Origin: Marinagarivorans algicola
GTDB taxonomy: Bacteria; Pseudomonadota; Gammaproteobacteria; Pseudomonadales; Cellvibrionaceae
Direction: 5' to 3'
Assembly: GCF_001292705.1 (NCBI RefSeq)
Contig: NZ_LGAK01000017.1
Coordinates: 1 to 64,000, forward strand
Length of the DNA: 64,000 nt
Shown: positions 159-50,214 of the stretch, one piece after another
Position numbering within the stretch: position 1 is the stretch's first letter
Layout: each line of letters starts with the position of its first letter
Notes under the pieces: generated by a model
Seen by the model: the letters and a program-made list of their open reading frames with translations, nothing else
What the model was told of the DNA's origin: nothing
Databases searched by the model: none
Program-made: the position numbers and the translations under genes

Positions 159-316
159 TCACTATTCAGAGATACCGAAACTGGGCACTGATGAATCATT
201 GTCTCGGTAGCTTAAGCCATCGATGGGCGCTATATAAGTGCCCTTGGTACTTAAATTCCAGGAAATAATCTATCAATACCTTATCAGATGATTTTTTCAG
301 ATTGGCGGAATAGTTA
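159..316 (+). repeat. Dispersed MITE-like repeat, copy A
   Basis: This 158-bp element begins TCACTATTCAGAG and ends GGCGGAATAGTTA, so its ends form a short terminal inverted repeat. Its first 60 bases are nearly identical to the copy at 44866, and its last 25 are nearly identical to the copy ending at 37703. The flanks share TTTATTTTGTC on both sides, a possible target duplication, although part of that string may belong to the element. It has no coding capacity. Confidence 0.75.
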
Positions 317-37401: not shown

Positions 37402-37773
37402 TGTTTTACTGCGTATCTCGTTGGGTGTGGTGCATAATTCTTTCTGTATTAATAACTATTCGGTGGCATCGAAATTATGCAACTCCTGAATCATTGGCCG
37501 AGTTGCTCAAGCTTTTTGCGACTTCTTGCTTCTCGATGTTGCGTTTTTCGAGCCTGTGCTCCTGCCAAGCCTTATCTTGCAGATATTTATGCAGGCGCAC
37601 TGTCTAATCCTTGCTTTCCCTGCAGGGCTCGGCACGTAAATACCCAAGTAATAACCCATCAGCACCCTATAAGATGAGGTTTGTCAGCTTGGCGGAATAG
37701 TTACCTTTATTATAGGTTCAATTTTTCACTGTGTGATTGTATTGAGTATCAATTGCTTAAGGAGTTAGTTATT
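37402..37773. other. Divergent promoter region with repeat copy F
   Basis: Lies between the histidine kinase and modA. Repeat copy F (37453-37703) fills two thirds of it, leaving about 70 bases on the modA side for a promoter. No ModE box or molybdenum-cofactor riboswitch was recognised. Confidence 0.5.
37453..37703 (+). repeat. Dispersed MITE-like repeat, copy F
   Basis: Longest copy, 251 bp, with perfect 9-bp terminal inverted repeats TAACTATTC and GAATAGTTA. The start continues GGTGGCATCGAAATTATGCA and CTGAATCATTGG. The end is AAGATGAGGTTTGTCAGCTTGGCGGAATAGTTA. The interior, with GCGACTTCTTGC, CTCGATGTTGCG and GGGCTCGGCACG, is shared in part with copies D and E but missing from A and G. 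Confidence 0.8.
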
Positions 37774-38730
37774 TTGATAAAGCTTGTGATGTGTGTGAGT
37801 GTTTACTTACTTCTGGAGGCAGGTAATGTTTATGCGCAGGCGCTACGCGTCGCGGTCGCGGCTAATTTTGCTGAGCCATTAAAAGAACTTGCCACGGCTT
37901 TTGAGCGTACAACAGGCCATCAAATTACCATTATTAGTGGTTCTTCGGGCAAGTTGCATGCGCAAATAGTACGCGGTGCCCCCTTCGATGTGTTTTTATC
38001 GGCAGATACACAAAAACCACGCGCGCTTATTGAGCAGGGTATTGCAACATGCGCCTTTACTTACGCTCGCGGGCAATTAGTCTTGCTGGTGAGTAAAAAG
38101 GCTTTAGCTCGGGCGGGAACATCAGCGTGGCTAGAGTGGTTAAATGCACCATCTGCTAAGCGCATTGCTTTGGCTAACCCTTTGGTGGCACCTTACGGCA
38201 TAGCTGCGCAGCAAGTCTTAGAGCGTATGAGTGATACGGCAGATACGAATCAACATAATGCACAACACAAAGCGCTAGCCTCAAAAAAAACGCAATTCAT
38301 TAATGCAGAAAATATCAGTCAAGTAGCACATTATGTTAATAATCGCAGTGTTGATGCAGGCTTCATAGCAGCCTCATTATTACCGTCAATCAAAGGTGAA
38401 ACTATTACACCGCTCACCAATGCAGTGCATTGGCGGGGTATGAGGCATTGGTGGTTGTGGGATATTCCAGAGGAAATGTATTCGGCTATTTTACAGCAAG
38501 GGGTTATTTTACCGCGGGCGAATGCTGAGGTGGCGAATGCATTTCGGCAGTTTTTGCTCAGTGCCCAGGCGCAGGCAATATTGCGTGCCAATTGGGGCTA
38601 CCTGATGATTACACCAGACGATGAGCCTATGGTGTGCAATCAGAAATCGGCTCACTTGTTATGTTGTGGCGAGCGCTCAAGTGCTGACTGGAGGGTAAAT
38701 GCAGACAAGGTGCAATATGTTGAGTCTTAG
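37774..38730 (+). CDS. modA: Molybdate ABC transporter, substrate-binding protein
   Basis: Periplasmic molybdate/tungstate-binding protein. The TTG at 37774 is chosen because AAGGAG lies nine bases upstream and gives a normal signal peptide (IKLVMCVSVYLLLEAGNVYAQA). The mature protein begins LRVAVAANF and has the ligand-contact motifs SGSSGKLHAQI and GAPFDVFLSAD, then INAENISQVAHYVN. The usual C-terminus near QAILRANWGY is followed by about 40 extra residues rich in Cys, whose codons overlap the start of modB by 32 bases. First gene of modABC. Confidence 0.92.
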   Translation: MIKLVMCVSVYLLLEAGNVYAQALRVAVAANFAEPLKELATAFERTTGHQITIISGSSGKLHAQIVRGAPFDVFLSADTQKPRALIEQGIATCAFTYARGQLVLLVSKKALARAGTSAWLEWLNAPSAKRIALANPLVAPYGIAAQQVLERMSDTADTNQHNAQHKALASKKTQFINAENISQVAHYVNNRSVDAGFIAASLLPSIKGETITPLTNAVHWRGMRHWWLWDIPEEMYSAILQQGVILPRANAEVANAFRQFLLSAQAQAILRANWGYLMITPDDEPMVCNQKSAHLLCCGERSSADWRVNADKVQYVES

Positions 38731-39421
38731 TGCTGATGATTGGGCTGCTGTTGTGTTGACTATTAAGTTAGCCAGTACTGTGACTGGGATATTAATTGTT
38801 GTGAGTACGCCGCTAGCATGGTGGTTGGTGCAAACCCAATCATGGTTTAAAGCGCCGATTGTTGCTTTGGTCGCTATGCCAGCTATTTTACCCCCAACGG
38901 TTTTGGGGTTTTATTTTCTGGTATTACTCAGCCCTTCAAGCTGGCTTGGTCACGTATTAACGGCCGTGCATATCCCGAGTTTACTCTTTAGTTTTACAGG
39001 CCTCGTGGTTGCTTCTGTGATTTACTCGCTGCCTTTTGTGGTGCAGCCTATTTATTTAGCGATGAAGGGGATCCCCAAAGCAACTTTAGAGGTTGCAGCG
39101 ACAATAGGGGCTAGCCCTACGGATCGTTTTTTTTCGATTGTATTACCTTTGAGTCGCCCAGGTATTATTGCTGCGGCTGTTTTGGGTTTTATTCATACGG
39201 TGGGTGAGTTTGGTGTGGTATTGATGATTGGCGGAAATATCCCTCAGCAAACCAAAGTATTATCGATTCAAATTTATGATCATGTTGAAGCACTGAACTA
39301 TGAGGCGGCACATGTTTTATCGGGTAGCTTGGTGTTGTTTTCTTTTGTGGTACTACTGGTGCTGTATAGCGTCTTATGGCGTGGTGCTAACCCTAATACG
39401 ATCGAAAGACGAAGTCGCTAA
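38699..39421 (+). CDS. modB: Molybdate ABC transporter, permease
   Basis: Inner-membrane permease of the molybdate importer, 240 aa with about five or six helices. The cytoplasmic EAA-like loop that docks on ModC is LEVAATIGASPTDRFFSIVLPLSRPGIIAA near residues 135-165. The start ATG at 38699 has GGAGG immediately upstream and overlaps the end of modA; the in-frame ATG at 38717 is an alternative. ModC follows after 29 bases. Confidence 0.94.
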   Translation: MQTRCNMLSLSADDWAAVVLTIKLASTVTGILIVVSTPLAWWLVQTQSWFKAPIVALVAMPAILPPTVLGFYFLVLLSPSSWLGHVLTAVHIPSLLFSFTGLVVASVIYSLPFVVQPIYLAMKGIPKATLEVAATIGASPTDRFFSIVLPLSRPGIIAAAVLGFIHTVGEFGVVLMIGGNIPQQTKVLSIQIYDHVEALNYEAAHVLSGSLVLFSFVVLLVLYSVLWRGANPNTIERRSR

Positions 39422-39450
39422 ATAATGATGATACCGGTTAGGGAGTTTGT

Positions 39451-40596
39451 ATGAGTGCATCCGCCAATACGGGTTTAAGTACGAGCCTTATATGGCCACG
39501 CAAAAGTTTTGATGTTGATATCCAGCTGACACTACCTGCGGGGGTCAATGTATTATTTGGGCCTTCAGGGTCAGGTAAGACAACAATTTTACGTTATTTA
39601 GCAGGCCTAGATCGAGACGCTAATTACGCTGGTGAAATATATGTTAACGGTGAGTGTTGGTTTAAAGCGATTACAGGCCATAAAAAATATCAGTTAGATT
39701 GCCACAAACGCTCTATCGGGTATGTTTTTCAAACGCCGTCGCTGTTACCTCATTTAACGGTTAAGCAAAATTTAGTCTATGCCATTAAGCGCAGTAAGGT
39801 GTCGCAATCATTGGTCACATTCGAGTCATTGATCGCGTTATTAAAATTGGCACCACTGCTGCATCATATGCCTCACCAGTTGTCGGGTGGTGAGGCGCAG
39901 CGAGTGAGCTTGGCAAGGGCTTTTCTTATTAAACCTAAATTACTGCTGCTGGATGAGCCCTTGTCGGCGCTTGATGTATTACATAAACAAGAGTTGCTTG
40001 ATTTTATGGTATCGTTATTCGCTACGATCAATATCCCCGTAATTTATGTCACGCATTCACTCGAAGAGGTCGCGCGGCTGGCCCAGACACTAACAATCTT
40101 AGAGAATGGCAAGGTTAAATACAGTGGTGAGGCGCAGCATGTACTTAGCAATTTGGCAGTGGCTGCTACGTTAGGACGTGATGCGTGTGTGTATGTTGAA
40201 GCGATCATTTGTGATGACGAAAACCCTTGGTGCTTAATTAAGGTGGCGCTCGGTGATGCGCAATTATATTTTCCCCGATCAGTACTACCTCAGCGGCTTG
40301 CTCAGCATAATACTGCATTGCGCCATTTTAAAAATACACCAGTACGCTTAAAAATTAACGCTAGTGATGTCAGTTTGGCGCGACAAATTCCGCAGCAATC
40401 GAGTATTCAAAATTGTATTGAAGGTGTCATTGATTGTGTTTGGCTTGATGAGCTTGATGCGTATTGTTTAGTGAGTGTTGATGTGGGCGGTCAGGTTATA
40501 ATTGTTCGCATCACAAGAAAGTCGTTCAGTGAATTGGCACTCGTATGCGGTATGACAGTTTTTGTCTTGATTAAATCAGTTGTGATTACGGGTTGA
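39451..40596 (+). CDS. modC: Molybdate ABC transporter, ATP-binding protein
   Basis: ATPase energising molybdate import, 381 aa. Walker A is GPSGSGKTT near residue 38, the signature [14 protein letters not shown] lies near 148, Walker B is LLLLDEPLSALD near 169, and the switch His is in VTHSLEEV near 203. The C-terminal third is a TOBE/molybdopterin-binding domain (about 295-375: TPVRLKINASDVSLARQIP). Last gene of modABC. Confidence 0.95.
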   Translation: MSASANTGLSTSLIWPRKSFDVDIQLTLPAGVNVLFGPSGSGKTTILRYLAGLDRDANYAGEIYVNGECWFKAITGHKKYQLDCHKRSIGYVFQTPSLLPHLTVKQNLVYAIKRSKVSQSLVTFESLIALLKLAPLLHHMPHQLSGGEAQRVSLARAFLIKPKLLLLDEPLSALDVLHKQELLDFMVSLFATINIPVIYVTHSLEEVARLAQTLTILENGKVKYSGEAQHVLSNLAVAATLGRDACVYVEAIICDDENPWCLIKVALGDAQLYFPRSVLPQRLAQHNTALRHFKNTPVRLKINASDVSLARQIPQQSSIQNCIEGVIDCVWLDELDAYCLVSVDVGGQVIIVRITRKSFSELALVCGMTVFVLIKSVVITG

Positions 40597-40712
40597 TATA
40601 TACCGCGAAAGCGCTGATATAGTGCCCCAGTTAATAATTCATTAATACCGCCGCTCAGTATTTCTGAGTTGTAGCTGCATATTTCTTGATAAATGTTATA
40701 CCGCAAGTTACT

Positions 40713-41618
40713 TTACTGTGAGTCTATAAAATACTGTATTTTTTTCTTGATGGCTGGCCAATGCATTAGCCAGCCATCGCTGTGCCGTGTATCCGTTAGG
40801 TTATAGCAGTGCACATGCGTTTGAATATGGCATATGTTTTGTGCGCTGTAAGAGATTACATCATCTTGATGGGCAAAGTAATGCCACTGTGGAATGTTGA
40901 GTAACGGTAGTGTGAGTGTACTTTTGGGAAGTTGATGAATGTGATTAAATTGAATGGGCTTAAGATTACCGGCTAAGGTGATAATTAACAGGGGTTTATG
41001 TAACATGTTATTAGCTAGTAGCATGGCCAAAGTACCACCACCGCTATGACCTATAAGTATATAGTGAGATATTGCATGTTGTTGCAGTGCGTTTTCTAGC
41101 TCTGCTTTTAATGCGCGAATAACACCTTGACTATAAATATCAGTGGTCCACCAATTAGCGGTACAGTGATTAGGTAGTGTTTTTACGCTCGAAAAATCCG
41201 ATGGCTTAAGGCTTGTATTATCAAAATAACATGGGCGTTTTAGGTACAGTGCGGTTGCTTGAGTGTTTTGCCATAATGGATAGGCAACAGGTTTTTTAAC
41301 AATGGGCCGCTGGGCTGGCCAGCGCCCAAGTACCCAGGGTGTGCCATCTCCCTCAATAAACACCCATGCACTCGAGTTAGACGGATGCTGACGCGATAGG
41401 CTGTTATTGGTTGGAGTGTTACCCAGTTTGATAATACTGGATGGTATAGGCGGTGTTTTTGCGTAAGGCGTGGTATGTGTCGTAGGCGCGCAGGCGACGA
41501 GAGTCAAGCCCATAATGGACAGGCTGTAGTTTTTTAATATGAGTACTGTTTTTTTGAAAAAGTGATAGTTAAGGTGAGTTAGCGGCCATATGATCGCTCT
41601 GGGTACTAGGTGTGGCAT
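40713..41618 (-). CDS. Lipoprotein-like alpha/beta hydrolase
   Basis: Putative serine hydrolase of 301 aa. The ATG at 41618 overlaps the stop codon of the upstream diguanylate cyclase gene (TAATG), which decides the start and implies translational coupling. A hydrophobic segment ends in GLTLVACAPTT near residues 37-47, a possible lipidation or membrane-anchor site, although it is preceded by an unusually long N-terminus. The nucleophile elbow is LIGHSGGGTLAMLLA near residue 172. FVFIEGDGTPW-type strand and PQWHYFAHQDDVISYSAQ supply the rest of a possible triad. Substrate unknown. Confidence 0.7.
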   Translation of the reverse strand: MPHLVPRAIIWPLTHLNYHFFKKTVLILKNYSLSIMGLTLVACAPTTHTTPYAKTPPIPSSIIKLGNTPTNNSLSRQHPSNSSAWVFIEGDGTPWVLGRWPAQRPIVKKPVAYPLWQNTQATALYLKRPCYFDNTSLKPSDFSSVKTLPNHCTANWWTTDIYSQGVIRALKAELENALQQHAISHYILIGHSGGGTLAMLLANNMLHKPLLIITLAGNLKPIQFNHIHQLPKSTLTLPLLNIPQWHYFAHQDDVISYSAQNICHIQTHVHCYNLTDTRHSDGWLMHWPAIKKKIQYFIDSQ

Positions 41619-42337
41619 TAATCTGCGGTATCTAACGAAGTGTCTAGTGAGGTTTGCGGAAAAGGTACATGAGCCACGACACAATTACGGCCTTTGTTTT
41701 TTGCTTTATATAAGGCTTTGTCAGCTTGCATCACGAGCGCGCGCGCGGTGACTTCTTTATCTTGAAAGTTAGCTGTCGATACGCCAAGGCTAGCACTTAA
41801 CGATAATTGTCGTCCTTGAGGCAAAATAATCGGTACGCCAACAATTTGTTGGCGTAAGCGTCCAGCAACAGCAATGGCCGTATTCATCGGTGTACTGGGT
41901 AAAATAATGGCATATTCTTCACCGCCATATCGACAAGCGATATCGAGCCTTCTTAGGTCATGCATAATGGCGTTGGCAACATGTTGGATAGCGAGATCAC
42001 CAATAGGATGCCCATAGTCATCATTGACACGTTTAAAGTGGTCAATATCGAGTAAAATCAAGCTGGTAGGGTGGCCTGTGCGGCGTGTGCGCTCAAGCTC
42101 TTGATTAACGGCATAATTGAAATGACGCCGGTTATGTAAACCGGTTAATTCATCGCGATGAACGTCATTTTCTAATTTTTTAACGCGTGCACGTAAAGTT
42201 ATAAGCTCTTGCCAAACAGGGCATTGCTCATCGCCATTTGAGCATCTATGCTCGGTCTCGTTTTGGCTCATAAGGATATCCTGTACAGATGCACTAATGG
42301 CTGGCGCTTTATTTAATTGTGTATAAATAATACGCAT
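41618..42337 (-). CDS. Diguanylate cyclase (GGDEF)
   Basis: Synthesises cyclic di-GMP from two GTP. The 239-aa product has no membrane helix. A short N-terminal part includes a coiled-coil-like stretch (VWQELITLRARVKKLENDVH, 41-60). The GGDEF domain begins at DELTGLHNRRHFN, with the active site GGEEY at 138-142 and an intact inhibitory I-site RRLD at 129-132, so it should be catalytically active and feedback-inhibited. Start choice is uncertain: ATG 42271 has a better ribosome site (AGGATA) and ATG 42337 lies closer to nspC. It is 21 bases downstream of nspC and coupled to the next gene. Confidence 0.92.
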   Translation of the reverse strand: MRIIYTQLNKAPAISASVQDILMSQNETEHRCSNGDEQCPVWQELITLRARVKKLENDVHRDELTGLHNRRHFNYAVNQELERTRRTGHPTSLILLDIDHFKRVNDDYGHPIGDLAIQHVANAIMHDLRRLDIACRYGGEEYAIILPSTPMNTAIAVAGRLRQQIVGVPIILPQGRQLSLSASLGVSTANFQDKEVTARALVMQADKALYKAKNKGRNCVVAHVPFPQTSLDTSLDTAD

Positions 42338-42358
42338 ACTTCTTATTGTGCACAATTT

Positions 42359-43522
42359 TTATGACAGTCGCATTTTAAAATCATTATAGGTGAACGACTT
42401 CACAATGCGTGTTTCTCCGGTCTTTGTGTGCGTGGTGACAATGGCGGGTAAGGGGATACCATTAAAGGTTGTATTTTTTACCATTGTGTAAATAGCCATA
42501 TCTTCAAACATCAATCGCTGGCCTATTTGTAGTGGTTCACTGAAGCTGTAATCACCAATCACATCGCCTGATAAGCAGCTGGGCCCACCTAGGCGGTAAG
42601 TGTAGCCTAATGCGTTAGGCTCGCCAGCGTGGGTAATGCGAGGGCGGTAAGGCATTTCTAAGACATCGGGCATATGACAGGTGGCCGATGCATCCAAAAT
42701 GGCTAAATCCATTTGATTGTGTACTGTATCGAGTACCTCGCACACAAAAATGCCTGCATTGAGCGCAATCGCTTCGCCTGGCTCTAAATACACTTGCACA
42801 TGATGTTGCTGGCTAAATGCTTTGATTCGTGTGATGAGGTCTTCGACTTGATAGTCTTCACGGGTAATATGGTGACCTCCGCCAAAGTTTACCCATTGTA
42901 CTTGCGGCAATATTTCACTAAAGCGTGCTTCTATCGCGTCTAAGGTGCGCGCCAGTGGCTCGAAATCTTGCTCGCAGAGTGTATGAAAATGTAAGCCGCT
43001 AATACCGCTTAGATCTTCATTTGCAAATTTATCGATAGTGATACCCATGCGCGAACAAGGAGCGCACGGATCGTAAATAGCGGCTGCGCCTTCAGAGTGC
43101 TCGGGGTTGATGCGTAGTCCAAAAGACAGCTCAGGACGCTTTTTTTGTGCTGCTAGAGCTTGTGCTTTATGTTGTTTCCATTGGCTAAACGAGTTGAACA
43201 CGACATGATTGGACAGCGCTAGCACCTCGGCGATTTCTTGCGGTCTGTAGGCGGCGGCGTAGGTATGTACTTCACCGCCGTACTCTTCTCGGCCTAGTCG
43301 CGCCTCAAAGGGGCCGCTGGCGCAGGTACCGCTTAAGTATTTCATAATAAGTGGAGCAGCATCAAAAAATGAAAATGCTTTTAACGCGAGTAATACTTTA
43401 GCGCCACTGCGTTGTTGCACATCGGCTAAAAGCTGTAAATTTTTTTCTAGCTGACACTCATCAATGATATAGCTAGGGCTGGGTACGCTGTAAAGATCAA
43501 AGTTTTCGAGGGAGTGAGACAC
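42359..43522 (-). CDS. nspC: Carboxynorspermidine/carboxyspermidine decarboxylase
   Basis: PLP-dependent decarboxylase of the alanine racemase-fold (fold III) family that makes spermidine or norspermidine from its carboxy precursor. The 387-aa protein has the PLP Lys48 in LLALKAFS, the ASGPFEARLGREE strand, the HFHTLCEQ segment and the EPGEAIALNAG phosphate-binding loop. The C-terminal domain has GPSCLSGDVIGDY with the conserved catalytic Cys. GTG 43522 is chosen because GGAT precedes it; TTG 43534 is an alternative. It follows the partner dehydrogenase gene, separated by a small hairpin. Confidence 0.95.
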   Translation of the reverse strand: MSHSLENFDLYSVPSPSYIIDECQLEKNLQLLADVQQRSGAKVLLALKAFSFFDAAPLIMKYLSGTCASGPFEARLGREEYGGEVHTYAAAYRPQEIAEVLALSNHVVFNSFSQWKQHKAQALAAQKKRPELSFGLRINPEHSEGAAAIYDPCAPCSRMGITIDKFANEDLSGISGLHFHTLCEQDFEPLARTLDAIEARFSEILPQVQWVNFGGGHHITREDYQVEDLITRIKAFSQQHHVQVYLEPGEAIALNAGIFVCEVLDTVHNQMDLAILDASATCHMPDVLEMPYRPRITHAGEPNALGYTYRLGGPSCLSGDVIGDYSFSEPLQIGQRLMFEDMAIYTMVKNTTFNGIPLPAIVTTHTKTGETRIVKSFTYNDFKMRLS

Positions 43523-43547
43523 GCGGTAATCCAAAAAGAGTCGACAA

Positions 43548-43573
43548 AAAGAAGCCGCTTTAATGAGCGGCTT
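43548..43573 (-). terminator. Intra-operon hairpin upstream of nspC
   Basis: AAGCCGCT and AGCGGCTT form a perfect 8-bp stem with a six-base loop. On the minus strand it is followed by CTTTTTG. It lies between the dehydrogenase gene and nspC and could act as an attenuator or partial terminator that lowers nspC and diguanylate cyclase expression. Confidence 0.55.
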
Positions 43574-43597
43574 GTTAAAAAGGCTTGCTGAGGGGAG

Positions 43598-44797
43598 TTA
43601 GTTGCTTAACCCCGTCTTTGTGAGCTCCACAACGGTCCAAGGGAGGCCGTACTGGTTGAGATCTTCCATAAACGGATCAGGATCAAACTGCTCCATATTC
43701 CACACCCCAGCTTTCATCCATTGGCCATCGAGCATCATTTTGGCGCCAATCATGGCAGGCACGCCAGTGGTGTACGAGATAGCTTGTGATTGGACTTCGG
43801 CATAACACGCTTCATGGTCGCAGATATTATAAATATACATAATGCGTTCCTTGCCATCTTTAATGCCTTTGGCGACACAGCCAATGCATGTGCGCCCTTT
43901 TGTTAGCGGGCCTAGGCTTGACGGATCGGGCAACACCGCTTTAAGAAACTGCAGTGGTACAATTTCTACACCGTTATACTTAACGGGTTCTATACCTGTC
44001 ATGCCAACATTTTGCAATACTTCTAAATGCTGTAAATAGGCATCGCCAAAAGTCATCCAAAAGCGGGCGCGCTTAATTTCAGGAAAGTGCTTGGTGATAG
44101 ACTCTAGCTCTTCATGATACATTAAGTACATGTTTTTAGTGCCTATGCCTTCAGGGAAGTCATAGGTCTCTTTGATGGATAATGGTGCGGTTTCTACCCA
44201 CTGGCCGTCTTGCCAGTAGCGCCCATTGGCGGTGACTTCGCGAATATTGATTTCAGGGTTAAAGTTAGTAGCAAACGGTTGCCCATGATCGCCAGCATTG
44301 CAATCAATAATATCCAGCTCGTGTATTTCATCAAAATAATGTTTTTTGAGGTAGGCGGTGTATACGTTGGTCACACCCGGATCAAACCCGCTTCCTAATA
44401 AAGCCATCAATCCGGCTTGCTTGAATTTATCTTGGTAAGCCCATTGCCAGCTATATTCGAATTTGGCCTCTTCAGGTGGCTCATAGTTGGCGGTATCCAT
44501 ATAGTGAATGCCGGCATTGAGACAGGCATCCATAATGTGTAAATCCTGATAGGGCAGTGCCACGTTAATAACGAGGCTGGGCTTTTCCGCCTCGAGTAAT
44601 GCGGTTAATGCGGGGACATCATCGGCATCTATTTGTGCCGTACGAATAGGGCGTTTTAATTGTGCCGCAATGGCTTTACAGCGCGCCTCGGTGCGACTTG
44701 CTAAAATAATTTCGCCAAATACTTCAGGTAGTTGTGCGCACTTGTGGGTCACAACACCACCAACGCCGCCGGCACCAATAATTAAAACCTTGCTCAT
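43598..44797 (-). CDS. Carboxynorspermidine/carboxyspermidine dehydrogenase
   Basis: Member of the saccharopine dehydrogenase family that reductively condenses aspartate semialdehyde with putrescine or diaminopropane, using NADPH. The 399-aa product begins with a Rossmann motif VLIIGAGGVGGVV (4-16). It has the characteristic DTANYEPPEEAKFEYSWQWAYQ, LLGSGFDPGVTNVYTAYL and DCNAGDHGQPFATNFNPEINIRE blocks of the carboxynorspermidine group. Start ATG has GAGG upstream. Paired with nspC and near speA, it indicates the aspartate-semialdehyde route to spermidine in place of S-adenosylmethionine decarboxylase. Confidence 0.94.
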   Translation of the reverse strand: MSKVLIIGAGGVGGVVTHKCAQLPEVFGEIILASRTEARCKAIAAQLKRPIRTAQIDADDVPALTALLEAEKPSLVINVALPYQDLHIMDACLNAGIHYMDTANYEPPEEAKFEYSWQWAYQDKFKQAGLMALLGSGFDPGVTNVYTAYLKKHYFDEIHELDIIDCNAGDHGQPFATNFNPEINIREVTANGRYWQDGQWVETAPLSIKETYDFPEGIGTKNMYLMYHEELESITKHFPEIKRARFWMTFGDAYLQHLEVLQNVGMTGIEPVKYNGVEIVPLQFLKAVLPDPSSLGPLTKGRTCIGCVAKGIKDGKERIMYIYNICDHEACYAEVQSQAISYTTGVPAMIGAKMMLDGQWMKAGVWNMEQFDPDPFMEDLNQYGLPWTVVELTKTGLSN

Positions 44798-44857
44798 AAT
44801 GTAAACCTCAATAGTGTGGGTTTATGGGCTGCATAGACAGCCAATTAAGTAGATGAA

Positions 44858-44865
44858 TGTTATTT
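44858..44865 (+). repeat. Left 8-bp direct repeat flanking copy G
   Basis: TGTTATTT immediately left of repeat copy G. An identical TGTTATTT lies immediately right of it at 45028-45035. This is the best candidate target-site duplication of the family. Confidence 0.6.
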
Positions 44866-45027
44866 GTAACTATTCAGAGATACCGAAATTGGGCACTGAT
44901 GAATCATTGTCTGGGCCGCTCAAGCCATCCATGGGCGCTATACAAGCGCTCCCGACACTTAAATGCCCAGGAAATAATCCATCAGTGCCCTATCAGATGA
45001 TTTTTTTCAGTTTGGCTGAATAGCTAC
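44866..45027 (+). repeat. Dispersed MITE-like repeat, copy G
   Basis: 162 bp with the best-preserved ends: GTAACTATTCAG and CTGAATAGCTAC, an 11-of-12 terminal inverted repeat. The body reads AGATACCGAAATTGGGCACTGATGAATCATTG, GGCCGCTCAAGCCATCCATGGGCGCTAT and CAGGAAATAATCCATCAG, close to copy A. It sits between the stop of speA and the promoter region of the dehydrogenase gene. Confidence 0.85.
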
Positions 45028-45029
45028 TG

Positions 45030-46949
45030 TTATTTTTCGTAATAGGTGTAGCCACGCATGCTGTCGCTGAATGCGTTCATTATTTTTAGGCGCTCGGCGG
45101 GTGTAATGCGGCCTTCACGTACGGCCTGTTCGGCTGTGCGACGAAAGCGATTTTGCATTTCCTGTGGATTGTATTCCACGTAGCTTAAAACATCAGCAAT
45201 ACTATCGCCTTCAATTTCATGAATAAAGTCGTAGCTGCCGTCGTCGTTAAAGCGAATGCTGACCACATTAGTATCGCCAAATAAATTGTGTAAATCGCCG
45301 AGGGTTTCTTGGTAGGCACCGACGAGAAACGCTCCAATATAATACTCTTCGTCATCTTTAGGTTGGTGCAATGGCAATGTTTTACGTGTCCCACGATGAT
45401 CGGCAAAGCGATCAATCTTGCCGTCGCAATCGCAGGTGATATCGGCAATAATGGCATTGCGAATAGGTTTTTCATCTAGTCGATGTAAAGGCATCACAGG
45501 GAATACTTGCTCAATTGCCCACATGTCAGGCAGTGATTGAAACAAACTAAAGTTGCAGTAAAAAATATCAGAGAGTTGATCTTTGAGTTTTTCGGCTTCA
45601 TCGAGACCGCGCGGCATTTCTTCGGCAATGGCTAAGATGCGATGCATGACAGCTAAAAATAAATTTTCGGCAAGTGAGCGCGAGCGCAAGTTAATTTGTC
45701 CGCGTTTAAATATTTCACGCAATTCATCGCGGTAAAAAACCGCATCGTTATAACACTCTTGAATATTACGCTCGTTGACCAGGCTAATCAGGTCACTTAA
45801 GTTGTGTACCATGACGTTTTCACTGGCGGGTATCTCACTCGGAATTTTACCCGGTTCGTAGTGAGCTACATCTAAAACATTAAAAACTAATAGCGATGAG
45901 TAGGCAACGGTTGCGCGCCCTGATTCGGTCACAATAATAGGATGGCTAATATTAAATGGATCAAGGGTGCTCATAATCACATCCACGATATCAGCGCAAT
46001 ATTCATCGAGTGAGTAGTTGCGCGAATGTACGTAGTTGGATTTAGAGCCGTCATAGTCAACCGCCAAGCCGCCGCCAAGGTCTAAGTAGCCCATGTTTGC
46101 GCCTTCGCGGACGAGGTCCATGTACACTTGGCACGCCTCTAAAACACCGGTGCGAATATCGCGAATGTTGGGGATTTGCGAACCTAAGTGATAATGCAAA
46201 AGCTGTAAGCAATCGAGCATGTCTTCGGCTTTTAAGGTGTCAACCAGCTCGATAACCTGTGCCGTAGAAAGCCCAAATATACTGCGGTCACCACTGGTGG
46301 CATTCCAGTGCCCGCCCACCATAGAGGCCAACTTAACGCGCACGCCAATCATGGGTTTAATGCCAAGTGCGCGGCTGCGTTTCAGTATAATGGGTAGCTC
46401 TGAAGGCGTTTCAATGACAAAAAAAACGTTATAACCCATGTTGCACGCTTGCAAACCTAGGTCGATAAACTCTTCATCTTTATAGCCATTACAAATAATA
46501 CACGCTTCACGGTTCTCTAGTGTGGCGAGAGCAATAATGAGCTCGGGTTTTGAGCCAGCTTCAAACCCGTGATTGTAAGGTGCGCCTACTTGAGCGATCT
46601 CTTCGATAACATGACATTGTTGATTCACCTTCACAGGGAATACGCCACGGTATTCAGCTTGGTAATGGCTGTCTTTAATGGCTTTGCGAAAGGCTTCATT
46701 TAAGCGCTTAATTTGTTGCGCTAATAAATCTTCAAAGCGAATGAGTACAGGAGCATCCATGCCGCGTTCACGTGCCTGACGGACAATATCGAGAACGGAT
46801 GCTTGTACTTGCACATTGTTTTCGGTTGTGCTGGTAACAGCCACTTCACCGTTGTGGTCAATTTTAAAGTACCCAGCGCCCCATTCATTAATGGCATAAA
46901 GCTCGGCGGCATCATCGGTTGACCAAGTAAGGTGTGATTTTGTATTCAA
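45030..46949 (-). CDS. speA: Biosynthetic arginine decarboxylase
   Basis: PLP-dependent decarboxylase converting arginine to agmatine, the first step to putrescine when ornithine decarboxylase is not used. The 639-aa length is that of SpeA. Recognisable segments include YRGVFPVKVNQQ (PLP Lys), GFEAGSKPEL, GVRVKL, LHYHLGSQIPNI, LGGGLAVDYDGSKSN and, near the end, GDTNVVSIRFNDDGSYDF. The stop codon lies inside the 8-bp direct repeat next to repeat copy G. Agmatine-processing enzymes are not in the window. Confidence 0.97.
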   Translation of the reverse strand: MNTKSHLTWSTDDAAELYAINEWGAGYFKIDHNGEVAVTSTTENNVQVQASVLDIVRQARERGMDAPVLIRFEDLLAQQIKRLNEAFRKAIKDSHYQAEYRGVFPVKVNQQCHVIEEIAQVGAPYNHGFEAGSKPELIIALATLENREACIICNGYKDEEFIDLGLQACNMGYNVFFVIETPSELPIILKRSRALGIKPMIGVRVKLASMVGGHWNATSGDRSIFGLSTAQVIELVDTLKAEDMLDCLQLLHYHLGSQIPNIRDIRTGVLEACQVYMDLVREGANMGYLDLGGGLAVDYDGSKSNYVHSRNYSLDEYCADIVDVIMSTLDPFNISHPIIVTESGRATVAYSSLLVFNVLDVAHYEPGKIPSEIPASENVMVHNLSDLISLVNERNIQECYNDAVFYRDELREIFKRGQINLRSRSLAENLFLAVMHRILAIAEEMPRGLDEAEKLKDQLSDIFYCNFSLFQSLPDMWAIEQVFPVMPLHRLDEKPIRNAIIADITCDCDGKIDRFADHRGTRKTLPLHQPKDDEEYYIGAFLVGAYQETLGDLHNLFGDTNVVSIRFNDDGSYDFIHEIEGDSIADVLSYVEYNPQEMQNRFRRTAEQAVREGRITPAERLKIMNAFSDSMRGYTYYEK

Positions 46950-47133
46950 TGTCTGTGCTTACCTCAAAAGTAGATGGGCTAAAAGTTAGGTGTAGTTAAA
47001 ATAACCCAGGCTAAAAGTGGCGAACTATCGCAGATTTTTTTAGGGATAGCTATACCCAATTAACGTCTAATACCACATTGTTTTTAGTGGGGTAATCGAT
47101 GCCAGGCGCTGGCGTGCAAAATACTTGATTCGC

Positions 47134-48141
47134 CTAGCTAAAAAGCTTGCTGCGCACTGTGGTGCGGTACTGGTTAGGCGGTACGCCAAAAGTCTTTTTA
47201 AACAGGCGGCTAAAGTGCTGCGGGTCTTGTAGGCCAGTGTAGTTCGCTATTTCGGCAATGCTTAAGTTACTGCTTTTTAGCATATCTTTTGCCGTGGTCA
47301 TTCGATGGCGCTGTACATATTGCAAAGGTGAAAGGTTAAGGGCGTTTTTAAAGTGCCTATTGAGGCTGCGCACGCTAATGCCTAATGATGCCGCTAAAGC
47401 GGCGATATCGATACTCTGGTAGTTTGGTGTATTCGCCGGTTGTGTGAGTAGCTCATCGAGTTTGGCAACGGCAAGCGCGACTCGTTCGTCGGAGGTTAGA
47501 GTATTACTAAGGCCTGCTTGCGTATTGGGCTGGCGTATTTCATGAAAAAAATTGCGTTCAACCGTTTGCGCAATGGCACTGCCGTATTGCTCCTGAATAA
47601 AAAAAGCGGTGAGCTCTGCAAGAGCATTAATGCTGGCTGTGCAAAAAATGCGAGGCTGACCGCTAGCGTGGCTTTGGGTAATAAAGCGATCGCGCTGCAG
47701 TTTGACATCAGGGTAGCGCCGGCTAAAGCGATCAAAAAAATGCCAGTGAGTGGTGGCAAATTGATGCTGCAGTAATTGAGCTTGCGCCAAAAAGCATACG
47801 CTAGTCCCGACTGCCGCTAGCGTGCAATCGGTGGGAATGGTGCTTAGCCAGTTTAAAATATCGGGTTGTTGGTTCAATATTTTTATCGGGTCACGCCATA
47901 AAGCGGGTAAAAATATCAGACTATCGCGCGGGATGGGAGTATCGAGCGAACTGCTTTGCAAAGGGAGGCCGGTGTGAGTGTTGATGGTGCCGCTGGTTTG
48001 GCTACGAAATTCGATAGTCAATGGTGGTAAATGATGCTGCTCAACCTTGCGCATAGCCCAAGCGGCACGGAGCATCTCTAGGGGAAGGGTAACGCTAGTG
48101 GCCAGCATATTGGGGTAAAGTAAAAAGATAACAGGTTGCAT
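47134..48141 (-). CDS. GlxA family AraC-type transcriptional regulator
   Basis: Transcription factor with an N-terminal DJ-1/PfpI-like domain (about 1-185: VIFLLYPNMLATSVTLPLEMLRAAW) and a C-terminal AraC helix-turn-helix pair (about 225-325: DIAALAASLGISVRSLNRHFKNAL and IAEIANYTGLQDPQHFSRLFKKTFGVPPNQYR). The start at 48141 (MQPVIFLLYPN) is chosen because it opens the first strand of the domain; the frame is open to 48264. It is divergent from the ketoacyl synthase gene, 153 bases apart, and so is a likely regulator of it. Confidence 0.9.
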   Translation of the reverse strand: MQPVIFLLYPNMLATSVTLPLEMLRAAWAMRKVEQHHLPPLTIEFRSQTSGTINTHTGLPLQSSSLDTPIPRDSLIFLPALWRDPIKILNQQPDILNWLSTIPTDCTLAAVGTSVCFLAQAQLLQHQFATTHWHFFDRFSRRYPDVKLQRDRFITQSHASGQPRIFCTASINALAELTAFFIQEQYGSAIAQTVERNFFHEIRQPNTQAGLSNTLTSDERVALAVAKLDELLTQPANTPNYQSIDIAALAASLGISVRSLNRHFKNALNLSPLQYVQRHRMTTAKDMLKSSNLSIAEIANYTGLQDPQHFSRLFKKTFGVPPNQYRTTVRSKLFS

Positions 48142-48294
48142 ACTGAGCCTAAAGGTAAAATGAGTTTGGCTATTATGGCATGTATATTGGCTATTCTGAC
48201 CTGCTTGGCTTAAGCCGGCAAGCTTACACTTTAGGTCATTAGTTATGTGTCTATCGCGCTTCATCTGAGGTGCGAGATTAATGGAATCTATTGA

Positions 48295-50214
48295 ATGACT
48301 CGCTTACCTGTTATTACCGCTTTTGGTGGCTTTAATGCCGCTGGCCGCAGCTCTTTTCACCATAGTTACAAACGGACTATTTTTACTAGTCTTAACCAGC
48401 AACAGCAGCGCCAAAACTGTACGGCGTTGGCGAGTATCATGGGGTTGCTGCAGTGGCGCAATGAGGATTACTACTGGATTGATGGTGTTGTGTATGATCC
48501 TGTGCACGATTTTTCGCGACTTAAAATGTTGGTTGAAGCGGGCTCTTTGGTGCGCAAGATTGAGCCAAGTCATTTTGATGTCAATGCGGTATTGGTAGGT
48601 AAAAAACTCACCCTTGATGGCTCTGAGCATACGCCAAGCCTTGTCAAAATGACTAAGCGCGATCTGCCAGAGGTGCTTCCGCAGGGCTGGCGTGTCGTGG
48701 CGCAAGAGGGGCGCGAGGTAACGCTGGCCATTAGCGAGTCAATCACGACCTATGCACAGCATGGCAGTGTGATGCCCGTGCAGGCTGCAGGGCAATTGCC
48801 TTCAGGCTTTAACCCTGGCGATCATTACCGCTCTTTGCACCACCCGCGAGGCTTACAGCTTTCGGTTGTAGCCGCCAGTGATACAGTCAATAGTTTAGGG
48901 TTGGACTGGCAGAGTATTGTGCATCGTGTTAAGCCTGATGAAATTGCCGTTTACAGTGCCAGTGTTATGAGTCAGCTCGATGACACGGGGTTTGGCGGTA
49001 TGTTACAGGCGCGCAGTCAAGGTGCGAGGGTTACCTCAAAACAACTGGCTATGGGCTTTAACTCTATGCCAGCTGACTTTATTAATGCTTATGTGCTGGG
49101 TAGTGTCGGCGCCACAGCGGGTGTTGTTGGTGCATGCGCAACATTTTTGTACAACCTAAACGCAGCAGTTGATGATATTAAATCGGGTCGCCGACGCGTT
49201 GTTATGGTTGGGAGTGCTGAGGCACCCATCTTACCCGAGGTCATTGATGGCTATCATGCGATGAGCGCTTTAGCGACAGATGCCGAAATAGCGCGCCTAT
49301 CGGGTGGATTGCTGCCAGATGGCGCGATAGATTACCGTCGTGCGAGCCGCCCTTTTGGGGCCAACTGCGGTTTTACCATTGCCGAATCTGGCCAATATGT
49401 CTTGCTAATGGATGATGCTTTAGCGCTAGAGCTCGGTGCGACTATTTACGGTGCTGTTCCGGGCGTGTTTGTGCATGCTGACGGCTATAAAAAGTCTATA
49501 TCGGCACCAGGACTTGGCAATTATTTAACGATGGGGCGAGCGGTGGGCTTGGCGCAAAATTTACTGGGTAGCGAAGTAGTACGCAATAGTAGCTTTGTGC
49601 AAGCGCACGGCTCGAGTACTCCGCAAAACCGTGTCACTGAGTCGCGTATTCTTGATGAGGTGGCCAAGCATTATGGTATTGACTACTGGCCTGTCGGTGC
49701 GATTAAGTCCTATGTTGGGCATTCATTGGGCCCTGCCAGCGGTGATCAAATGGCGAATACACTGGGAGTATTTGCGCAGGGTATTCTACCGGGGATCAAA
49801 ACGATTGATAGTGTTGCTGACGATGTACTAGCTCAGCGTTTGGGGATTTCTAATCAAGATACCGAGCTCGGTTGCAAGGGCGCGCAAGTGGCTTTTCTCA
49901 ATTCGAAAGGTTTTGGTGGCAACAATGCAACCGCTACTGTGGTGGCGCCCCATACAGTGCATACTTGGTTGCAAAAGCGTCACGGCAAAGCGGCTTTTAA
50001 TGCCTACCAAGATGCCAACCAAATCGTGCAAGCCACCGCAAAAGACTATGATGATTACGCGCTTAAAGGAGATTTAAAGGCTCTTTATAACTTCGGAGAA
50101 CATTTGGTAGATGAAACTGCGTTAAGTTGGAGCCATGAAGGGCTGCAGATCCCAGGCTTCGCTCATCCTGTCGCGTTAAATAGCGACGGCGGCTTTGATG
50201 ATCTGGCGCCATAG
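48295..50214 (+). CDS. Beta-ketoacyl synthase, long form
   Basis: Condensing enzyme of the thiolase fold, 639 aa. The catalytic triad is visible: Cys281 in VVGACATFLYNLN, His438 in VQAHGSSTPQN, and Lys471/His476 in AIKSYVGHSLGPASGDQM. This is a FabB/FabF-like C-terminal domain preceded by about 190 extra residues (NCTALASIMGLLQWRNEDYYWIDGVVYDPVHDFSRLKML...) that I cannot assign to a domain, making it 200 aa longer than FabF. No acyl carrier protein or other fatty acid genes are adjacent, so the substrate is unknown. Flanked by a divergent GlxA-type regulator and a following XRE regulator. Confidence 0.85.
   Translation: MTRLPVITAFGGFNAAGRSSFHHSYKRTIFTSLNQQQQRQNCTALASIMGLLQWRNEDYYWIDGVVYDPVHDFSRLKMLVEAGSLVRKIEPSHFDVNAVLVGKKLTLDGSEHTPSLVKMTKRDLPEVLPQGWRVVAQEGREVTLAISESITTYAQHGSVMPVQAAGQLPSGFNPGDHYRSLHHPRGLQLSVVAASDTVNSLGLDWQSIVHRVKPDEIAVYSASVMSQLDDTGFGGMLQARSQGARVTSKQLAMGFNSMPADFINAYVLGSVGATAGVVGACATFLYNLNAAVDDIKSGRRRVVMVGSAEAPILPEVIDGYHAMSALATDAEIARLSGGLLPDGAIDYRRASRPFGANCGFTIAESGQYVLLMDDALALELGATIYGAVPGVFVHADGYKKSISAPGLGNYLTMGRAVGLAQNLLGSEVVRNSSFVQAHGSSTPQNRVTESRILDEVAKHYGIDYWPVGAIKSYVGHSLGPASGDQMANTLGVFAQGILPGIKTIDSVADDVLAQRLGISNQDTELGCKGAQVAFLNSKGFGGNNATATVVAPHTVHTWLQKRHGKAAFNAYQDANQIVQATAKDYDDYALKGDLKALYNFGEHLVDETALSWSHEGLQIPGFAHPVALNSDGGFDDLAP

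Follow-up and report, generated by a model that had tools for sequence, protein, structure and literature searches.

Genes of the array

The stretch of DNA analyzed here (64,000 nucleotides, positions 1 to 64,000 of contig NZ_LGAK01000017.1 from the gammaproteobacterium Marinagarivorans algicola, Cellvibrionaceae; hereafter the window) carries on its minus strand an array in which three genes of polyamine synthesis, speA, a carboxy(nor)spermidine dehydrogenase gene (CASDH) and nspC, are followed by the gene for a small diguanylate cyclase (DGC) and that for a hydrolase. An earlier sequence-only reading had proposed that this array links polyamines directly to biofilm formation. The window genome (4.06 Mb, the window lying in its contig C23) is denoted G000 and its closest relative G001. 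In the direction of reading, the array consists of the following (lengths in amino acids, aa):

45030..46949, minus strand: speA, biosynthetic arginine decarboxylase, 639 aa (TIGR01273, 734.5 bits; cut-off 624)
43598..44797, minus strand: CASDH, carboxy(nor)spermidine dehydrogenase, 399 aa (NF043000 and Pfam domains)
42359..43522, minus strand: nspC, carboxy(nor)spermidine decarboxylase (TIGR01047, 493.6 bits; cut-off 409)
42272..42358, minus strand: gap between nspC and the cyclase gene, 87 bp, as set by the start ATG 42271
41618..42271, minus strand: small diguanylate cyclase, 217 aa (PF00990, 155.4 bits; cut-off 23.8)
40713..41618, minus strand: lipoprotein alpha/beta hydrolase, 301 aa, sharing one base with the stop of the cyclase gene

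The gene identities and common strand given by the sequence-only reading hold up in these searches: SpeA and NspC exceed their curated cut-offs (NspC as translated from TTG 43534), as does the GGDEF domain of the cyclase, scored on a translation with a longer start. CASDH falls below its cut-off, with 422 bits against the 800 set for NF043000, the carboxynorspermidine synthase model; this match runs over the full length and is by a wide margin the stronger of two, and both the N- and C-terminal saccharopine dehydrogenase domains of Pfam are recognized. By comparison with relatives, NspC probably starts at GTG 43522 rather than at TTG 43534, and the TTG start of speA is common to the window and G001. 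The ratios of nonsynonymous to synonymous substitution (dN/dS) between these two genomes are 0.017 for speA, 0.036 for NspC and 0.039 for the cyclase. SpeA, CASDH and NspC are enzymes of the route from arginine to spermidine, and the product of the array would be spermidine, not norspermidine; the same genome has, on a different contig, an aguB-like gene for the putrescine step. Norspermidine production was considered, but the single match above cut-off to the dat model (diaminobutyrate aminotransferase) resembles an ectoine aminotransferase by its neighbors, which look like an ectoine cluster (the decarboxylase that would form diaminopropane was not searched).

The start of the cyclase gene determines how closely it follows nspC. 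The sequence-only reading had placed the two genes 21 bases apart, which requires a start at ATG 42337; in G001 (95% protein identity) the leader proposed from that codon holds an in-frame TAG, for which reason this start was rejected. ATG 42271 is preceded by AGGA and shared with relatives, and is most likely the true start; with it the gap measures 87 bp, not 21. The overlap of the cyclase stop with the hydrolase start (TAATG, 41620-41616), also pointed out earlier, is present in the window and missing from G001; there, 54 nt separate the cyclase stop from the opening of the hydrolase frame.

Some further observations concern the surroundings of these genes. The window genome holds a second, incomplete nspC-like frame (G000:C37:23981-24706) in two pieces that match model positions 1-152 and 220-318, and G001 has a second, full-length nspC with CASDH behind it (L120). 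Two other loci (L115 of G030 and L112 of G013) combine CASDH and nspC with following aguA- and aguB-family genes, the latter exceeding the curated cut-off, in a compact spermidine/putrescine array. The open reading frames at 37681-40596 of the window, presumably ModA-, ModB- and ModC-like, converge on the array from its hydrolase side.

Conservation and history of the nspC-cyclase order

Our sample comprised 144 genomes of the family, in which cyclase orthologs were called at E <= 7.6e-43 and NspC matches at E <= 1e-30. A clear cyclase ortholog was obtained in 79 genomes and an NspC match in 119, the NspC-negative status of G012, G020, G150, G152 and G155 being a deduction. The cyclase sets exclude frames of at least 330 aa or with less than 38.5-39% identity, and the 79 exclude a second match in G032 (a 632-aa frame) and all weaker matches; G152 (3.4e-40) and G083 (5.7e-40) were counted as negative, though they are possibly orthologs. 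The adjacency, whose conservation had been suggested as a check, is kept: nspC and the cyclase gene are same-strand neighbors in 18 of the 144 genomes, belonging to seven genera and to a single CASDH-NspC lineage, as the proteins of these genomes together with those of G163 form one clade (19 tips, support 1.0). In 17 of the 18 loci, about 9-123 bp separate the two genes, fewer than 50 bp in 9 to 11 of these 17, depending on the choice of start; in G002 the gap reaches 1.8 kb and holds a 578-aa frame without a Pfam match (L088:5776-7512). Upstream, the order speA-CASDH-nspC-cyclase is held while the downstream neighbors change: among 16 scored relatives, the next gene is the hydrolase in three, Ppnp in two, members of families f22 and f56 in three each, f80 in one and singletons in four. 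Recurrence was judged by counts of this kind; p-values, which either disregard relatedness or depend on our grouping into lineages, were given no weight.

The gene behind the cyclase could itself belong to the functional unit, with the lipoprotein hydrolase forming part of the output of nspC and the cyclase. The protein bears out its earlier description as lipoprotein-like: the lipobox (Cys43) and the catalytic triad Ser192, Asp252 and His279 are invariant in all five aligned sequences, and a structure search returned general alpha/beta hydrolase folds (model with a predicted local distance difference test score, pLDDT, of 69). The gene follows nspC and the cyclase in G000, G001, G029 and G164 and stands behind nspC alone in G163, which would suit such a unit. 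This placement is nonetheless found in two genera only, G002 lacks the hydrolase at the locus and has its best homolog elsewhere in the genome, and the overlap with the cyclase gene is not shared by G001. Moreover, the hydrolases of G000 and G001 are 62-68% identical with a dN/dS of 0.21, as against about 95% and 0.04 for the cyclase. We therefore consider a three-gene unit unlikely; the hydrolase is a faster-evolving, optional part of the array.

The history of the linkage can be read from genomes in which the cyclase gene has other neighbors. In genera g7, g12, g21 and g31, it stands behind a gene for an HPF/S30AE-like protein (one member tested), in L138 with a 121-aa frame between them. 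The ketoacyl-synthase-like gene and the AraC gene of the window recur farther upstream in five of the seven fetched loci of this HPF type; the fetched stretches of the other two hold neither. Three HPF-type genomes included in the CASDH-NspC tree (G009, G014 and G033) have polyamine genes of another lineage, located elsewhere. The RpoB tree places the HPF-type genomes inside the nspC-cyclase clade (18 rows, 99/99), which points to an ancestral locus of the form HPF-like-speA-CASDH-nspC-cyclase whose polyamine part was later lost. This tree covers 28 of 30 genomes (G032 gave no match, and G164, with its RpoB in two pieces, was left out), and the forks that bear on loss versus gain have supports of 90/94 to 95/91. 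The linkage is probably ancestral and would have been lost at least twice. The converse, by which an older site with the HPF-like and cyclase genes would have acquired the polyamine genes, was rejected, loss being simpler given where the HPF-type genomes fall. G030 appears to represent an intermediate in such a loss: speA, a remnant of nspC and the cyclase gene are in place, and another CASDH-nspC pair is found elsewhere in the genome. The gene tree of the cyclase itself places the window genus together with the aguB group described next; with poor deep resolution and no supports, it was not used as evidence.

Genera g2 and g5 supply a second polyamine context: in 23 of their genomes, the cyclase ortholog is immediately preceded by an aguB-like gene, which in all nine fetched loci has an aguA-like gene before it. 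Over almost their full length, the tested AguA- and AguB-like members match the models for agmatine deiminase and N-carbamoylputrescine amidase, respectively, and in g5 the aguB-like gene and the cyclase gene nearly touch. In all, 41 of the 79 cyclase orthologs stand behind polyamine-type genes, in contexts that are few and related.

The cyclase protein and its N-terminus

The landmarks of the cyclase, with their conservation in 24 aligned orthologs, are the following:

42221..42244, minus strand: N-terminal cysteine pair Cys10-Cys17 (Cys10 in 24 of 24, Cys17 in at least 90%)
42158..42220, minus strand: helix, predicted coiled-coil segment, residues 18-38 (AlphaFold model)
41942..41953, minus strand: I-site RRLD, R107-D110 (R107 and D110 unchanged in all 24)
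41912..41926, minus strand: active-site motif GGEEY (G116, G117, E118 and E119 invariant in 24 of 24)

The I-site is thus intact, as had been read from the window, and further catalytic columns are likewise invariant in all 24. The fifth residue of the active-site motif, F in the GG(D/E)EF signature, varies, with GGEEY in G000, G001 and G002, GGEEI in G034 and GGEEF in the remaining orthologs shown. Against the Pfam and NCBIfam models, only the GGDEF part of the protein is matched and there is no EAL domain (Pfam at E <= 0.001); with just 39 residues ahead of the DxLT motif, the protein has no visible ligand domain. The AlphaFold model (pLDDT 88) shows the helix of residues 18-38 leading into the GGDEF fold.

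The short N-terminus follows a regular pattern across 74 orthologs, drawn from 53 fetched loci of the family (excluding the window) and 21 of the 27 strongest loci of a wider search, these 21 belonging to other families; the remaining six were repeats of family genomes. A cysteine pair of the form C-x(4-6)-C is found in 71 of the 74 (the exceptions being L143, L162 and L190), the pair nearest the GGDEF domain being taken where several were possible. The distance from the second cysteine to the DxLT motif is 16, 23 or 30 residues in 69 of the 74; G002 (24) and G016 (34) deviate, and L123, scored as 16 by our script, was re-read as 23. As these lengths differ by whole heptads, they point to a stalk formed by a coiled coil, the cysteines sitting at its tip. 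The cysteines may serve in metal binding or redox sensing.

The sequence-only reading had regarded the cyclase as a more direct connection between polyamines and biofilm than the one known from Vibrio. While the adjacency on which this idea was built is conserved, the cyclase shows no polyamine sensor, and among the six window proteins scanned we see no mechanism resembling NspS-MbaA. That the enzyme itself responds to polyamines, as a shortcut of the Vibrio circuit, would sit well with its position near two different polyamine gene sets and with the control of cyclic di-GMP by polyamines reported for Vibrio (PMC8079147; PMC5646818). Nevertheless, matches to the domain models end with the GGDEF part, an EAL domain is lacking and 217 aa leave no room for a ligand domain. 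The same N-terminus is also kept in orthologs far from polyamine genes, so an operon-specific polyamine sensor is unlikely to reside there. A directly polyamine-responsive cyclase is accordingly very improbable. The window cyclase is also one of many, the genome having 29 GGDEF matches.

In several genera (L126, L127, L149, L159 and L162), the cyclase gene is found behind genes for an ECF sigma factor and a ChrR-like cupin, a setting possibly in keeping with oxidative stress as the signal that the cysteine tip reads.

Expression of the array and comparison with known systems

Two structured elements interrupt the upstream part of the array:

43552..43573, minus strand: terminator-like hairpin in the gap between CASDH and nspC, AAGCCGC-loop-GCGGCTT-CTTTTT (fold z -2.5)
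44891..44990, no strand assigned: 100-nt palindromic dispersed repeat in the gap between speA and CASDH (fold z -6.8 for the stretch 44870-44995)

The hairpin is the small one already noticed before nspC, and it has the form of an intrinsic terminator. A strict terminator scan recovers it between CASDH and nspC also in G001 and G029; by eye, a hairpin is also seen in G002, and those of G163 and G164 differ in sequence and have no T run. At the other 13 nspC-cyclase loci, where CASDH and nspC overlap or almost touch, the scan finds no hairpin between them, so that the element belongs to two genera. The case for it stems from this recurrence in relatives and not from the scan count, as terminator-like sites in 40600-48400 number 8 against 8.9 in shuffled sequence and the hairpin alone is not above chance. 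If it terminates, it would lower the expression of nspC and of the genes behind it. In the 87-bp gap between nspC and the cyclase gene, the strict scan finds no terminator and a consensus scan no sigma-70-like match, the latter being weak evidence; promoter-like sites number 10, against 14.3 in shuffles. A search for known RNA elements with Rfam models at gathering scores gives only a tRNA. The palindromic repeat, itself flanked by additional inverted sequences (23 nt, 78% complementary), has at least 40 copies of 75-100% identity in its own genome (40 of 137 candidates scored), including one at window 183-275 and others on many contigs; in G001 and G002, the gap between speA and CASDH lacks it. 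This distribution suggests an element akin to a miniature inverted-repeat transposable element.

Together, the gene content, the conserved order, the motifs and the heptad-spaced linker lead us to the following reading, to which we give a probability of roughly 0.43. The genes speA-CASDH-nspC-dgc would form an old array of one clade of Cellvibrionaceae, in which the predicted cyclase would be a self-contained cytosolic enzyme, presumably dimeric, with its GGDEF domain on a coiled coil. Its product would limit it through the I-site, and it would answer a signal read by the cysteine tip, perhaps redox or metal, rather than polyamines. Its place behind the polyamine genes would loosely tie its expression to polyamine synthesis; in the window genus, transcription that passes a leaky terminator and runs on from nspC could bring this about. 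The link is likely to be one of shared expression and not of sensing; a transcript common to nspC and the cyclase gene is plausible, as is a separate promoter.

Several observations weigh against this coupling. Over the 144 genomes, cyclase and NspC show no positive association: both are present in 58, the cyclase only in 21, NspC only in 61 (47 of them from genus g4) and neither in 4. G163 keeps nspC and has no match to the cyclase; at its locus (L137), nspC is directly followed by the hydrolase, which looks like a natural loss of the cyclase gene from the array. A strong terminator-like hairpin separates nspC from the cyclase gene in G032, and one aguB-cyclase gap (L164) has a hairpin by eye. 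Further, the fetched aguB-cyclase gaps of g2, at 100-191 bp, are wide for a single transcript, and the AguA- and AguB-like members (one each tested) score under their cut-offs, with 247.7 of 381.8 and 290.1 of 410.25 bits. The cyclase gene also stands behind ECF-sigma/ChrR, MobA-like and other genes, and the 21 fetched orthologs from other families of the order have no nspC, AguA or AguB neighbor within about 1.5 kb.

Such findings bring up the possibility that the cyclase gene is a passenger with its own promoter, the order being kept by slow rearrangement and the polyamine and cyclic di-GMP functions being unrelated. The lack of co-occurrence is what this would predict, as are the persistence of the cyclase gene behind the HPF-like gene where the polyamine genes sit elsewhere, the hairpins before nspC in the window and before the cyclase gene in G032, and the wide gaps of g2. 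It accounts less readily for an order held through seven genera amid exchanged downstream neighbors, for the second context with aguA- and aguB-like genes, and for the gaps below 50 bp at about half of the measured nspC-cyclase loci or more. Passive linkage is a real possibility, and we regard the passenger explanation as a serious one, if short of an even chance.

The reading of loose coupling by shared expression can also be taken a step further. The proteins may represent a new family of minimal cyclases in which two cysteines of each partner meet at the tip of a dimeric coil and bind a metal or form a disulfide, thereby setting the register of the coil and the activity. In the Cellvibrionaceae, the enzyme would then have been placed twice under the expression of polyamine genes, once with spermidine and once with putrescine genes, so that the synthesis of polyamines and that of cyclic di-GMP would form a single regulon. 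We offer this extended version as speculation that is rather doubtful in its entirety.

If the coupling is true, a cyclase gene behind two polyamine gene sets would represent a simpler route to coordinating these functions, via shared expression. Known members of the Cellvibrionaceae degrade polysaccharides, and attachment to the substrate may matter for them. Separately, a cysteine-tipped coil whose length changes by whole heptads offers a small and clean system for studying the switching of GGDEF domains by coiled coils. Among the titles listed in our literature searches, none concerns a cyclase gene beside nspC or aguAB.

The closest functional parallel is the NspS-MbaA system of Vibrio cholerae, which likewise ties polyamines to cyclic di-GMP. 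In the published accounts consulted, polyamine control of biofilm in Vibrio operates by a periplasmic sensor and the signaling involves mainly extracellular norspermidine and NspS-MbaA (PMC8079147; PMC5646818); PMC8079147 describes an nspC mutant that formed no biofilm and an MbaA protein with SGDEF and EVL domains that senses periplasmic polyamines via NspS. The window cyclase, by contrast, has 217 aa and one GGDEF domain and is tied to polyamines by gene position alone. The combination of GGDEF and EAL in one protein that typifies the NspS-MbaA kind is not found in it, only the GGDEF part being present, and there is no binding protein among the six window proteins scanned (no search for NspS or MbaA was made in the remainder of the genome).

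In its architecture, the protein is nearer to cyclases that hold their GGDEF domain on coiled coils or dimerizing stalks: PleD (40% identity), WspR (40%, as a GCN4-WspR fusion), SiaD (34%) and the coil-plus-GGDEF part of Caulobacter DgcB (28%) are among its best matches in structure and sequence. Receiver or partner-binding modules accompany the GGDEF domain in PleD, WspR and SiaD, whereas the window cyclase has only a cysteine pair before a coil of about three heptads. The CZB-type cyclases that sense zinc or hypochlorite (e.g., DgcZ of Escherichia coli) resemble it in having a metal- or oxidant-sensing part, putative in the window cyclase, N-terminal to the GGDEF domain; CZB is a helical bundle with three histidines and one cysteine (PMC8846402), whereas the window cyclase has two cysteines and no other Pfam match at the threshold used above. 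Finally, the upstream part of the array has the same enzymes as the carboxyspermidine clusters of the form speA-CASDH-nspC-speB. An agmatinase-like gene (family f27, one member tested) lies behind nspC in seven fetched relatives; in the clade of the window, that position is taken not by agmatinase but by the diguanylate cyclase.

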